Of a stretch of DNA of 64,000 nt, positions 14,487 to 18,655 are shown one piece after another. The translations under genes and the position numbers were made by a program. The stretch is from Bradyrhizobium barranii subsp. barranii (lineage in GTDB: Bacteria > Pseudomonadota > Alphaproteobacteria > Rhizobiales > Xanthobacteraceae). Numbering within the stretch: the stretch's first letter is position 1; the number at the start of each line of letters is the position of its first letter. The notes under the pieces were generated by a model. That model was not told where the DNA came from. It did not search any database and saw only the letters and a program-made list of their open reading frames with translations. The DNA is taken from assembly GCF_017565645.3 (NCBI RefSeq), contig NZ_CP086136.1, positions 2,246,001-2,310,000 of the forward strand, in the 5' to 3' direction.

Positions 14487-15179
14487 ATGACCGGAGGTCA
14501 CCGCCGCATCCTGGTCGTCGAGGACGATCCGGAAACCGCAGGCCAGCTCGTCGAGGAACTGACCACCTCGGGCTACGACGTCGATCTTGCCGCGACAGGT
14601 CGTGAAGCTCTGAGCCACGGCGTCGCCCGCGACTACGCCGTGATCACCATCGATCGCATGCTGCCCGACATCGACGGCATCACCGTGATGCGCCAGTTGC
14701 GCGACGACGGCATCGCCGCACCCTTCCTGATCATCTCCGCGCTCGGCGAGGTCGACGACCGCGTGCGCGGTTTGCGCGCCGGCGGCGATGACTATCTCGT
14801 CAAGCCGTTCTCCTTCGTCGAGCTGCTGGCGCGCCTCGAGGCGCTCGGCCGCCGCAGCGAGACCGTCGCCAAGGAAACGATTTTGCGGGTCGGCGATCTC
14901 GCCATCGACCTGATCGCGCGCAACGCCAGCCGGCGCGGCCGGAAAATTCCGCTGCTGCCGCGCGAGTTTCAGCTGCTCGAATATCTCGTCCGCAACGAGG
15001 GCCGCGTCGTCTCCCGGGCGATGCTGCTCCAGCATGTCTGGGACCTGCATTTCGACCCCTCCACCAACATCATTGACGTCTATGTCGGGCGGGTCCGACG
15101 CAAGGTCGACGACGCCCAAGCCTATCCGCTGATCCATACCATCCGCGGCATCGGATATTGCATCCGTGCTCCTGGCTAA
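14487..15179 (+). CDS. OmpR-family two-component response regulator
   Basis: The 230-residue protein has a receiver domain (VVEDDPETAG; phosphoacceptor aspartate in ITIDRMLPDIDG at about residue 57; switch residue S in LIISALGE; K in YLVKPFSF). A winged-helix DNA-binding domain follows (about 135-228, with RNEGRVVSRAMLLQHVWD and IDVYVGRVRRKVDD). The histidine kinase gene begins 14 bases before the stop, so the two are translationally coupled. The regulated genes are not evident; the adjacent genes are a glycine-rich secreted protein and convergent regulators. The overall form resembles the copper/metal or envelope-stress OmpR groups, but that is not decisive. Confidence 0.93.
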   Translation: MTGGHRRILVVEDDPETAGQLVEELTTSGYDVDLAATGREALSHGVARDYAVITIDRMLPDIDGITVMRQLRDDGIAAPFLIISALGEVDDRVRGLRAGGDDYLVKPFSFVELLARLEALGRRSETVAKETILRVGDLAIDLIARNASRRGRKIPLLPREFQLLEYLVRNEGRVVSRAMLLQHVWDLHFDPSTNIIDVYVGRVRRKVDDAQAYPLIHTIRGIGYCIRAPG

Positions 15180-16242
15180 GACGCTCCGCTCCTCCACCTT
15201 CCGTCTGGCGCTGATCGCGATCGCGACGTTCGGGCTGATCGTCGCGGCGATCATGGCCTATGTCTATTTCGGCACGATTGCCTATGTGCAGGGCCGGGTC
15301 GGCGACGCCGGCGATCACAGCGGCTTCACCGCGATGATCGAGCTCGCGATGGTCGCCGTCGCCGTGCTGCTGGCCGTGCTGGCCGGGGTCGCGGCCGTGC
15401 TGGTGACGCGGCGCACGGTCGGACGGATCGAGGAGATCAATGCGACCAGCCGCGCCATCATGCTGTCGGGGCTCGACCGGCGCATTCCCTTGCGCGGCAG
15501 TCACGACGAGTGGGACCGCGTCGCCGAAAACCTCAATCAGATGCTCGACCGCATCGAGACGCTGATGGGTGAGGTCAAGCAGGTCAGCGACAACGTCGCC
15601 CACGATCTGCGCACGCCGCTGACGCGCATGCGCGGCCGGCTGGAAAAGGCCTATCACACCCCGCGAAATGGCGAGGCCGATGCGACGCTGATTGGCGATA
15701 CCATCGCCGATCTCGATTCGGTGCTCGGGATGTTCGCTTCCATCACGCGGATCTCGGAGATCGAGACTCGCGCCCGCCGGAGTGCGTTTCGCAAGCTCGA
15801 TCTCGCTGAAATTGCCGGCGAGGTCGTCGAGCTCTACGACGCCGCGGCCGAGCAGGTCGCGACCCGCCTCAGCCTTGACGGCGACCGCGAGGTGGCAATT
15901 ACGGGGGACCGCGACCTGCTGTTCGACGCCATCGCCAATCTGGTCGACAACGCGATCAAGCACGGCCGCGCGGGCGGGCAGGTCACGGTGACCTGTCGCA
16001 GCGCCGGCGCCGGGGCGGTGATCGCGATCGCCGACGATGGTCCGGGCATTCCCACCGGAGAGCGCGATCACGTCTTCAAGCGCTTCTACCGACTCGAACA
16101 GAGCCGTTACACGCCGGGCAACGGTCTGGGCTTGAGCCTGGTCGCGGCCGTTGCCGGTCTCCATGGCGCCGAGATTGCACTGCACGACAATGCGCCGGGC
16201 CTCACGGTCCGGCTCAGCTTCCCGGCGACATCAGCGCGATAG
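15166..16242 (+). CDS. Sensor histidine kinase (HAMP/HisKA/HATPase)
   Basis: Translation starts at GTG 15166 inside the regulator gene. The 358-residue kinase has two membrane helices (about residues 13-34 and 54-77), with only about 20 residues between them. There is therefore no real periplasmic sensor domain, and sensing probably occurs in the membrane or at its face. A HAMP linker follows (TVGRIEEINATSRAI). Next come the H-box NVAHDLRTPLTRM (phospho-His about residue 147), the N-box LVDNAIKHG, and the G1 and G2 boxes IADDGPGIP and GNGLGLSLV. It is the cognate partner of the preceding OmpR regulator. The signal is unknown. Confidence 0.92.
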   Translation: MLLAKTLRSSTFRLALIAIATFGLIVAAIMAYVYFGTIAYVQGRVGDAGDHSGFTAMIELAMVAVAVLLAVLAGVAAVLVTRRTVGRIEEINATSRAIMLSGLDRRIPLRGSHDEWDRVAENLNQMLDRIETLMGEVKQVSDNVAHDLRTPLTRMRGRLEKAYHTPRNGEADATLIGDTIADLDSVLGMFASITRISEIETRARRSAFRKLDLAEIAGEVVELYDAAAEQVATRLSLDGDREVAITGDRDLLFDAIANLVDNAIKHGRAGGQVTVTCRSAGAGAVIAIADDGPGIPTGERDHVFKRFYRLEQSRYTPGNGLGLSLVAAVAGLHGAEIALHDNAPGLTVRLSFPATSAR

Positions 16243-16254
16243 GAGCTGACGGCG

Positions 16255-16626
16255 TCATAGCTCGATCACGCCGCGGCGTGCCGCATGCGCGACCGCGTCG
16301 GTGCGGCCGGTGGCATCCAGCTTATCGAGCAGCGAGCCGACGTGGAATTTGACCGTGTGCACGGAAATGCCGAGCTGGCGCGCGATCAGCTTGTTGGACG
16401 CGCCTTCCGCCATCAGCGCCAGGACATCGAGCTCGCGCTGTGTCAGTGCGATGTCTTCCGGCATGCTGCGCGGATCGCGGGCCATGATCGTTGCCGTGGC
16501 GGCCTCGCCGGGCGCGGCGAGCCGAAGCCCGGCGATGTTGCCGAGCAGGACCGCCAGGCGATCGGCGAGGGCGGGATCGTCGATCTCCAGGGCGAGCACG
16601 ATCTCGGGCGCGTTGTCCTCGCTCAC
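16255..16626 (-). CDS. Short LuxR-type HTH regulator with truncated receiver-like N-terminus
   Basis: The 123-residue protein ends in a full GerE/LuxR helix-turn-helix (about residues 59-120: LTQRELDVLALMAEGASNKL, then IARQLGISVHTVKFHVGSLL). The first 55 residues resemble only the opening of a receiver domain (IVLALEIDDPALADRLAVLL...IAGLRL). They lack a phosphoacceptor aspartate in the right place, the rest of the receiver and the switch residues. It cannot be a normal response regulator. It starts inside the upstream pseudoprotease gene (ATGA overlap at 16623-16626), so both are probably made together. It converges on the histidine kinase gene with 12 bases between stops. It may regulate its own operon; the target is unknown. 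Confidence 0.85.
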   Translation of the reverse strand: MSEDNAPEIVLALEIDDPALADRLAVLLGNIAGLRLAAPGEAATATIMARDPRSMPEDIALTQRELDVLALMAEGASNKLIARQLGISVHTVKFHVGSLLDKLDATGRTDAVAHAARRGVIEL

Positions 16627-17489
16627 GCCTCGGGCCTCTCGCCGATCGTGACCTTGAAGCTGACCGGCTCGCCGCCGCGGCGCACCGCGACATCGACCAC
16701 CGTGCCGACGCTCGCAGGTCCCAGCGTCCGCGACAGCGCACGCACGCCGGAGAGCTTCTGGTCGTTGACCGCCACGATGACGTCGCCCTGGCGGATGCCG
16801 GCTGCAGCCGAAGGACCGGAATTGTCGACATTCATCACCATCGCGCCGATGCCATCGTCGAGCCGCACCGGCTGGAGCCCGAGGCCGAGATATCCGCGGG
16901 CGATGCGGCCGCGCGTCTCGAGTTGTGCCGCGACCCGCTCGATTGTCGCCGTCGGGATCACCAGGACCCGCCGCGGCCCGAGCACGGCCATGCCGAAGGC
17001 GTCGCCTGATGCATCGAGTGCGAGCCCGCCTTGCTGCGCGAAGCGCAGGCGCACGTCGAGCTCGATACGCGCATCGATGTCGCCGCCGCGCAAGGAGCGC
17101 CAGCTCTTGCCGGACAGTGATACCATGCCGAGCGCCGCGCTCGGCGCATCGCGATCGGTGGCGACGACGACCGACAGCGTGCCGAGGGGCGGAACGGTCG
17201 CGGCCAGCTTGACCGGCGCAAGACTGGCATCGGTGCGCAACAGCGCGATGTCGGTCGTATGGTCGCGGCCGACGATTGTGGCGGCAGCATTGCTGCCGTC
17301 GGGGAGGCTGATCTGGATATCGCCCTCATCGGCCAGCGCTTCGTCCGCGGTGACGATCAAGCCGGGTTTCCAGACGAAGCCGGTGGCGCGGGAGCGATGC
17401 GAATGCACGGCGACGACGGATGGCGCGGTGCGCGTCACGACATCCGCGAGCGCGGACGAAAGGGACGACAGAGGAGTGGGGTCGGTCAT
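16623..17489 (-). CDS. HtrA/DegP-like pseudoprotease with PDZ domain, apparently cytoplasmic
   Basis: The 288-residue protein aligns over its length with the trypsin-like plus PDZ arrangement of HtrA proteases, but its catalytic residues are lost. In GLIVTADEALAD (43-54) the position of the catalytic His is E50. In the Asp motif GRDHTTDIALL the acid D80 is kept. In FAQQGGLALD (150-159) the nucleophilic Ser position is Q153. The PDZ domain (about 199-282) has an intact carboxylate loop GYLGLGLQPV and the GIRQGDVIVAVNDQ turn. No signal peptide or membrane segment precedes the protease-like domain, unlike periplasmic DegP. It overlaps the LuxR-type gene by four bases. A binding or sensing role is my inference. 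Confidence 0.85.
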   Translation of the reverse strand: MTDPTPLSSLSSALADVVTRTAPSVVAVHSHRSRATGFVWKPGLIVTADEALADEGDIQISLPDGSNAAATIVGRDHTTDIALLRTDASLAPVKLAATVPPLGTLSVVVATDRDAPSAALGMVSLSGKSWRSLRGGDIDARIELDVRLRFAQQGGLALDASGDAFGMAVLGPRRVLVIPTATIERVAAQLETRGRIARGYLGLGLQPVRLDDGIGAMVMNVDNSGPSAAAGIRQGDVIVAVNDQKLSGVRALSRTLGPASVGTVVDVAVRRGGEPVSFKVTIGERPEA

Positions 17490-17689
17490 GGAAGGCTCCT
17501 GTAAATTGTCCTCAATCTGGGATGTCGCGGGCGATAGCGAAACTGGCCGGGTGGCCAGGACAGACGGGGCGGACCGGCTTCCGCAGGACTACGGCCGACG
17601 AACATGTGATTGGGAGGCGCTCACGGGAACGTGTAGCAATCCAGGAATTGCACTGTACGACCTCCAGCGTTTCCAGCGAGCCCCGACCG

Positions 17690-18655
17690 ATGACCGTCGA
17701 CCTCACCCGCCGCACCCTGCTTCAACTCGCCGGTGCGACCTCGCTCGCGATGGCGGCCGCCGCCGCCGCTCGGGCCGAGGGCATGCCGCAAGGCGGTGGG
17801 CCGACCTATGCCAGCCGCACGCCGATGCGGGTGGGCATGGTGACGCTCCGGGTCAAGAACCTCGACAAGGCCGCGGACTACTACCGCGACGTGATCGGGC
17901 TGACCGTGATGGAGCGCTCCGCGACCGCCGCGACGCTCGGCACGGCCGGCATCACGCTGCTCGTGCTGGAAGCCCGTCCCGAGGCCGCGATCGAGCCGCG
18001 CAATGCCGCGGGCCTCTACCACACCGCCTTCCTGATGCCGTCGCGAAAAGATCTCGCGCGCTGGCTGGTGCACGCAGCCTCGCATCGCGTGCCGCTGTCG
18101 GGCTTCGCCGATCATCTCGTCAGCGAATCCGTCTATCTCGACGACCCCGAAGGCAACGGCATCGAGGTCTATGCCGACCGCGATCCCTCGCAATGGCAGT
18201 GGAGCGAGGGCAGCGTGAAGATGGCGAGCGACGAGCTCAACATCCCTGACCTCTTGTCTCTCACCAACACGCGCGTCACAGACTATGCCAAGGCGCCGGA
18301 CGGTCTGCGCGTCGGCCACATGCATCTGCGCGTCGGCGATCTCGCCGAGGCCGAACGGTTCTATCACGGCGCTGTCGGCCTCGATCCGACCCGCCGCCGT
18401 GGCGGCGCCGCGTTCCTGTCGTCGGGCCGCTATCACCATCACCTCGGCATGAACGTCTGGCAGAGCCAGGGGGCCGGCCAACGTGACGATCAGACGACGG
18501 GGCTTGCCTGGTTCTCGCTGGTGATGGCGAAGCAGGACATTCTCGCCGCGCAGGAGGAACGCCTGCGCAAAGGCGGTGCGCAGGTCACAGCGCTCGCCAA
18601 CGGTCTGGAGGCCGTCGATCCCTGGGGCACGCGGGTGCGCCTGATCAGGGTTTGA
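17690..18655 (+). CDS. Tat-exported VOC-family protein (catechol 2,3-dioxygenase/CatE-like)
   Basis: I place the start at ATG 17690, because residues 6-31 then form a Tat signal ([10 protein letters not shown], a hydrophobic run, AARAEG). The frame is open further upstream without family sequence. The mature 290 residues hold two vicinal-oxygen-chelate modules. The first begins [20 protein letters not shown] and ends [18 protein letters not shown]; the second begins [20 protein letters not shown]. Metal-ligand candidates are H in GLYHTAFL, E in GIEVY, and H in GHMHLR. The closest known type is CatE of bacilli, a ring-cleaving dioxygenase in the cytoplasm. A Tat-exported version is odd, and its substrate is unknown. 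Confidence 0.82.

Follow-up and report, generated by a model that had tools for sequence, protein, structure and literature searches.

A conserved, catalytically dead HtrA protein paired with a LuxR/NarL-type regulator in Bradyrhizobium: a candidate autoregulated cytosolic switch

In DegS, which works with RseA and σE, and in AlgW, a PDZ domain senses protein C-termini and the output is transcription; both proteins are exported, membrane-linked and catalytically active. The locus described here lies within a 64,000-nucleotide stretch of the Bradyrhizobium barranii subsp. barranii genome (the window) and encodes a protein that shares the HtrA and PDZ fold of DegS and AlgW, but is signal-less and lacks the catalytic His and Ser (hereafter pseudo-HtrA). 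Another described system is MamO, an HtrA pseudoprotease of magnetotactic bacteria that acts with an active paralogue and has roles in magnetite biomineralization and metal binding; the parts of that account drawn on here name no transcription factor partner (PMC4794232). Pseudo-HtrA resembles MamO in having a degenerate triad within an HtrA fold, yet is paired with the gene of a transcriptional regulator. This regulator has the GerE helix-turn-helix of the NarL/FixJ family, and a full-length relative folds as VraR, LiaR and NarL do. Unlike in that family, however, the phosphorylation site is incomplete in relatives, the receiver ends after β3 in Bradyrhizobium, and the gene partner is a dead HtrA, with no kinase gene fixed alongside. 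Pseudo-HtrA also resembles signal-less HtrA proteins of the S1C family, such as the one encoded elsewhere in its own genome (C1:3240950–3241966; L171:7951–8967), in combining a protease domain and a PDZ domain with no evident signal peptide, whereas these retain an intact His/Asp/Ser triad and lie on a separate branch of the tree. A search of open-licence papers returned no description of a dead-HtrA/LuxR pair.

Both genes are on the minus strand, where a first-pass annotation of the window had placed them: the pseudo-HtrA gene at 16623–17489 (288 residues) and the regulator gene at 16255–16626 (123 residues, GTG start), the stop of the former and the start of the latter sharing the four bases GTGA. 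The HtrA fold and complete PDZ domain attributed to the larger protein are borne out by Pfam matches to Trypsin_2 (residues 35–167; 16989–17387, minus strand) and PDZ_2 (residues 203–282; 16644–16883, minus strand), and by an AF2 model (mean pLDDT 93, pTM 0.83) whose nearest solved folds are DegS, DegP and MucD, with DegS as the best match and AlgW within the first 50. The RGYLG segment directly N-terminal of the PDZ domain (residues 198–202) is unchanged in all 43 rows of a wider alignment. Against the NCBIfam Do-family model TIGR02037, the protein scores 94.2 bits, below the curated cut-off of 416.2, and its own sequence gives no support for the name serine protease that it bears in public records. 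Its own genome (11.4 Mb) contains pseudo-HtrA once, plus six further matches, from which five HtrA/DegP paralogues were taken for alignment.

All five paralogues have His, Asp and Ser at the catalytic positions. Alignment with them places Glu50, Asp80 and Gln153 of the window protein at these positions, as the first-pass annotation had read them, so that pseudo-HtrA does not carry the catalytic set of HtrA/DegP (S1C) proteases. In a 96-row alignment (the window, 80 Bradyrhizobium loci and 15 further loci of the family, with some species present twice), Glu occupies the His position in 95 rows and Asp in one, the Asp position is Asp in 95 and Ala in one, and the Ser position is Gln in 52, Glu in 42 and His in two; catalytic His and Ser, the retention of which in close relatives had been named as a sign of simple decay, occur in none of the 96 aligned rows. 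A wider 43-row set has Glu (41) or Asp (2) at the His position, Asp (34), Gly (7) or Ala (2) at the Asp80 position, which is therefore not universal, and Glu (29), Gln (11), His (2) or Gly (1) at position 153. Of the two replaced positions, the conservation of which had been put forward as a check, 50 is always Glu or Asp, and 153 varies between Glu, Gln, His and, once, Gly. An acidic cation site composed of Glu50, Asp80 and residue 153 was considered as a general feature and dropped, because Asp80 is replaced by Gly or Ala in 9 of the 43 rows. W40 and W130 are identical in 96/96 and 43/43 rows and are not found in the active paralogues; the position of W130 is one that we take to be the L3 sensor loop of DegS and DegP.

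In all 96 aligned sequences an acidic residue (Glu or Asp) stands at the His position and a residue other than Ser at the Ser position, so the loss of the catalytic residues is not decay. Seven pairwise comparisons gave dN/dS values of 0.148–0.274 for the pseudo-HtrA gene, indicating purifying selection, and seven for the regulator gene gave 0.093–0.276. In a quick IQ-TREE tree of 46 rows, with SH-aLRT support only and with L106 and L151 as long branches, a single branch (SH-aLRT 99) separates all pseudoproteases from the other rows, and those whose partner regulator is truncated cluster together (SH-aLRT 97); the loss of the catalytic site and the loss of the receiver therefore probably each happened once.

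No signal peptide is evident in pseudo-HtrA, and the possibility raised earlier that a start further upstream might supply one finds no evident counterpart in the frame, which is open for only 33 codons further 5′ and, as judged by eye, contains no hydrophobic segment. The N-terminal hydropathy peak has a median of 1.39 (range 0.41–2.19) in 95 relatives and lies at 1.85–2.49 in four exported-looking paralogues; since these ranges overlap, hydropathy alone cannot exclude a signal peptide in the top-scoring relatives. It is on this combination of sequence reading and overlapping hydropathy ranges that pseudo-HtrA is considered to be without the signal peptide or anchor of exported HtrA proteins.

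The regulator consists of a GerE helix-turn-helix DNA-binding domain (residues 61–115; 16282–16446, minus strand; Pfam, E = 1.1e-19), as in NarL/FixJ proteins, preceded by a receiver remnant at about residues 9–52 (16471–16602, minus strand; boundaries set by eye from the alignment and the AF2 model of a relative). In agreement with the earlier reading of a LuxR-type protein retaining only the start of a receiver, this remnant corresponds to β1-α1-β2-β3 of the full-length receivers of relatives and ends after β3. Only GerE passes the Pfam cut-off in the 123-residue protein, with no match to Response_reg and no autoinducer-binding domain, and neither Pfam nor alignment revealed another recognised sensor domain in the Bradyrhizobium regulator. 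The truncated form is found in Bradyrhizobium and at four loci of other genera (L093, L094, L095 and L138). Many of the more distant relatives have full-length but degenerate receivers, the regulators of sixteen relatives being about 190–225 residues long. The full-length regulator of L101 (AF2 mean pLDDT 90) matches VraR, LiaR and NarL in fold, and receiver-only targets among its first 50 fold matches have TM scores of 0.83–0.87. Of eight full-length regulators searched with Pfam, two matched Response_reg, in each case below the cut-off (E = 0.003 and 0.091). Of the 16 full-length regulators, all have an acid at the end of β1, 2 have a second acid before it, 14 have the β3 Asp and 1 has Lys at the β5 position; with the functional roles that we assume for these β1, β3 and β5 columns, the phosphoacceptor Asp, acid pair and Lys that characterize NarL/FixJ receivers are not found as a set.

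The pairing of the two genes, the conservation of which had been called for as a check, is strict: a regulator homologue adjoins the pseudo-HtrA gene on the same strand in 96/96 rows (including the window's own copy, L001), and a regulator gene is adjacent in 16/16 further loci, in reverse order at L106. The overlap is exactly four bases in 86/96 rows (start codons being guessed), and the four bases at the pseudo-HtrA stop are GTGA in 86/95 and TTGA in 5/95; one or the other in 91/95 suggests that the two genes are translationally coupled. One database protein, P0071 (411 residues), is a fusion of pseudo-HtrA and regulator. Its residues resemble the product of a one-base shift ahead of the overlap, and it may be either a real fusion or a sequencing error; that it is a single record is counted against the best explanation.

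A profile search at E up to 1e-58 found pseudo-HtrA in 97 of the 117 genus genomes searched (96 of the 109 of good quality), in 23/397 genomes of an order sample, in 17/398 of a phylum sample, all 17 also being within the order sample, and in 4/385 of a class sample; the genus count is for the pseudo-HtrA protein, the pairing counts for the 96 rows and 16 further loci. Within the family, a single-sequence search found it in 16/149 at E up to 1e-30, and outside the family eight matches in the order come from one genus (g382). Conserved neighbours were considered as a functional clue and set aside, since outside Bradyrhizobium the sole neighbour seen to recur beside the pair is an active HtrA. 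Around the window's copy lie a divergent gene with a VOC/glyoxalase fold and an apparent Tat signal, as judged by eye (17690–18655, plus strand), and a convergent two-component system comprising an OmpR-type regulator near the CopR/CzcR subfamily and a sensor kinase (14487–16242, plus strand). Homologues of the VOC gene, the kinase gene and its cognate regulator gene occur near the pair in 62/80, 61/80 and 60/80 Bradyrhizobium loci, respectively; the kinase and VOC neighbours were not seen in 24 other loci, inspected over flanks of about 1.5 kb (a single one from the same genus; L152–L167 left out).

Upstream of the pair lies a 16-bp palindromic operator candidate, CTGGCCACCCGGCCAG (17543–17558, minus strand), its 5′ end 69 nt before the ATG. 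An aligned palindrome is present upstream of the pair in 86 genus sequences, CTGGCCACCCGGCCAG being the commonest form (50/86). A symmetrised weight matrix built on these 86 sites was run over 23 loci, two of which (L168 and L169) form part of the training set, and a locus was counted when its top-scoring site fell no more than 220 nt ahead of the start of the pseudo-HtrA gene. By this measure, 20 of the 21 loci not used for training have the palindrome, which is kept in other families, as their best 16-mer anywhere in the locus. Because four of the 21 share the genus of L166, 16/17 is the fairer count; the 17 include L170, from the genus of the window, and a few of the rest are congeneric with one another. 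Counted against the operator are L165, which has the reverse gene order and where the palindrome is missing upstream of the pair (best site there, rank 59), and the small margins over the next-best site at L158 (9.2 versus 6.2), L160 (10.7 versus 9.1) and L162 (8.4 versus 7.1). When up to two mismatches were tolerated in a search of the 64-kb window, the number of matches was at chance level (30, with 32.4 expected).

A −10-like hexamer, CAGATT (17514–17519, minus strand), starts at the 24th base past the operator. An operator-anchored comparison of 19 loci (window, L168 and L169 included) shows preferred letters at base 24 (C in 14), base 25 (A in 16), base 27 (A in 12) and base 28 (T in 15); [CG]ANAT begins 22–25 bases past the operator in 15/19 loci, and at base 24 in 10. 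The other side of this count is that four of the 19 have no −10-like hexamer at that distance. Scans of 16200–17720 for σ70 promoters and terminators found nothing. If the hexamer is taken as the −10 element, the operator would be centred near −43, where class II activators bind, and positive autoregulation would be the natural reading. Palindrome and −10-like spacing together suggest, at the level of sequence, that the operon is activated by its own product, though a different regulator might recognise the palindrome.

The same palindrome occurs at genes for active HtrA proteins. In nine loci (eight of g382, and G748), the divergent neighbour of the pair encodes an HtrA in which the HVV and GNSGG motifs are intact and no signal peptide is evident, and all nine have two palindromes in the intergenic space: one lies 73–87 nt before the pseudo-HtrA start; the other, 75–83 nt ahead of the active gene as measured from its outer edge, is followed by CACATA at base 25 in 9/9. 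Active HtrA is next in the operon at L163 and L164, and a more divergent active HtrA is found at L165; 11 of 16 wide non-Bradyrhizobium loci (L152–L162, three of them on contigs shorter than 10 kb) have none adjacent. The L165 cluster that contains pseudo-HtrA and regulator also includes a single frame (L165:7204–7986, minus strand) that reads by eye as the first half of a signal-less HtrA followed by an XRE-like helix-turn-helix.

In Bradyrhizobium, the active HtrA gene is unlinked to the pair, and the palindrome (rank 1, score >8) precedes it in 14 of 27 unlinked loci scored, namely L180–L191, which hold the twelve most similar active HtrAs including that of the window's own genome, together with L196 and L199. 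The score at L186 is only 8.5, and the own-genome site is imperfect (score 11.9, two mismatches), the latter being counted against the link, as are the lack of the palindrome at active HtrA in 10 of 23 scored pair-bearing Bradyrhizobium genomes and the case of G1248, where the palindrome is present and the pair was not found in an 89% complete assembly. Three near-complete pairless genomes (G1244, G1247 and G1252) have no palindrome at active HtrA. In a second set, G064, which is close to the window's genome, has it (score 15.4), and it is absent from 10/10 other scored pair-bearing genomes, which likewise counts against the link, and from 7/7 scored pairless ones. The link between palindrome and active HtrA is lineage-dependent.

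Genome-wide, a stringent pattern, CTRSCCRNNYGGSYAG, gave 3 to 6 matches per genome in six genomes, with 30–42 for the reversed control. The pair's own site is among the matches in 5/6 genomes, that of active HtrA in 4/6 and a site between clpS and clpA in 3/6 (clpS, clpA and hemN-like gene names were assigned by eye). The three stringent sites of G024 (8.0 Mb) lie at the pair, at active HtrA and inside a hemN-like gene; the five of the window's own genome lie at the pair, the clpA site, the hemN-like gene and two copies of another sequence, the inspected copy of which is inside a gene, the active-HtrA site there being too imperfect for this pattern. The clpS–clpA palindrome (L220:1501–1516; C1:6405599–6405614 in the own genome) may tie the regulator to ClpAP. 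It lies 184–188 nt before clpA and is strong in six of the nine closest genomes scored; no site above 6.2 was found in 20 other scored loci, and clpA was thus set aside as a general target and is regarded as tentative. The perfect match within the hemN-like gene of several genomes (L222:1501–1516; C1:9007594 in the own genome) probably reflects coding constraint, and matches inside coding genes such as this were not counted as targets.

Computation thus gives a conserved dead site, strict pairing, a palindrome with its usual spacing and, in certain lineages, the same palindrome at active HtrA, and the pair seems to regulate its own expression as well as, in some species, that of a working intracellular HtrA. 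Our preferred reading, to which we assign a probability of roughly 0.43, is that the pair constitutes a positively autoregulated cytosolic switch with the dead HtrA as the regulator's input. The DNA binding of the regulator, the activation, the physical contact and the nature of the ligand and signal are steps that we infer. The LuxR/NarL-type protein would bind the 16-bp CTRGCCAYNNGGCYAG-like palindrome centred near −43 and, once bound, would activate the operon that encodes it; the gene of active signal-less HtrA may, in some lineages, be served by this kind of site as well. Its receiver seems to have lost the chemistry of phosphorylation, being degenerate in relatives and cut after β3 in Bradyrhizobium and a few others, and the input would for this reason come from the translationally coupled dead HtrA, with no histidine kinase. 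The PDZ ligand would most likely be the exposed C-termini of damaged or cleaved cytosolic proteins, and PDZ occupancy would be relayed to the regulator through direct contact. We favour a sign in which the dead HtrA would act as an anti-activator that releases the regulator on PDZ occupancy, though the sign could be the opposite. Such a use of the dead HtrA is the simplest mechanism in that it employs the dead site, the unusable receiver, the probable coupling and the palindrome together, and the palindrome link to active HtrA points to damage of cytosolic proteins as the probable subject of the signal. A broader formulation, which we regard as less likely than not, would make the pair an example of a class of signalling systems that use no kinase. 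A NarL-type protein would there take its input from a catalytically dead HtrA of the cytosol and not from phosphorylation, and PDZ occupancy by the C-termini of damaged proteins would control a self-amplifying operon and a cytosolic-proteolysis regulon; that regulon would contain active signal-less HtrA and, in the nearest relatives of the window's genome, tentatively clpA.

In the main rival explanation, the dead HtrA would serve its active cytosolic paralogue as a regulatory subunit that joins or activates it, in the manner of MamO and MamE, with the LuxR protein setting the levels of both and no contact between regulator and dead HtrA needed. MamO offers a precedent for this arrangement, as far as the source goes (PMC4794232), and the genomic context is consistent with it: active signal-less HtrA is the divergent neighbour in 9/9 loci of g382 and G748, it is next in the operon at L163 and L164 and more divergent at L165, and the palindrome is common to the pair and to active HtrA. 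We nevertheless consider this explanation unlikely, as many lineages have the pair but no linked or palindrome-bearing active HtrA, and regulator and dead HtrA are separate in no locus examined.

In a further reading, the dead HtrA would bind peptides as a chaperone or adaptor and have no part in signalling, being merely co-transcribed with a regulator that senses another ligand or its own level. The retained PDZ domain and RGYLG loop would suit such a role, and short overlaps are common among genes of one pathway. The pairing, however, outlasts the truncation of the receiver, the Bradyrhizobium regulator has no other recognised sensor domain, and one natural fusion (P0071) is on record; we regard this reading, too, as unlikely. 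That the two genes are decaying, functionless duplicates would account for the lost catalytic residues and the loss of most of the receiver, yet is highly improbable given that 97/117 genus genomes retain pseudo-HtrA, that dN/dS is 0.15–0.27 and that the palindrome is conserved in other families.

Compared with the one-output sensor envisaged in the first-pass annotation, what is new is an operator candidate in a likely activator position, together with the tie to active signal-less HtrA, and these make the autoregulated proteolysis switch that we favour the more specific proposal. The operator candidate makes the idea directly testable. If the switch is real, a response regulator can lose its receiver and yet retain a dedicated input through a recruited dead protease, and the pair would be a concrete candidate for the sensing of cytosolic protein damage in some alphaproteobacteria, its hosts being soil bacteria related to soybean symbionts.
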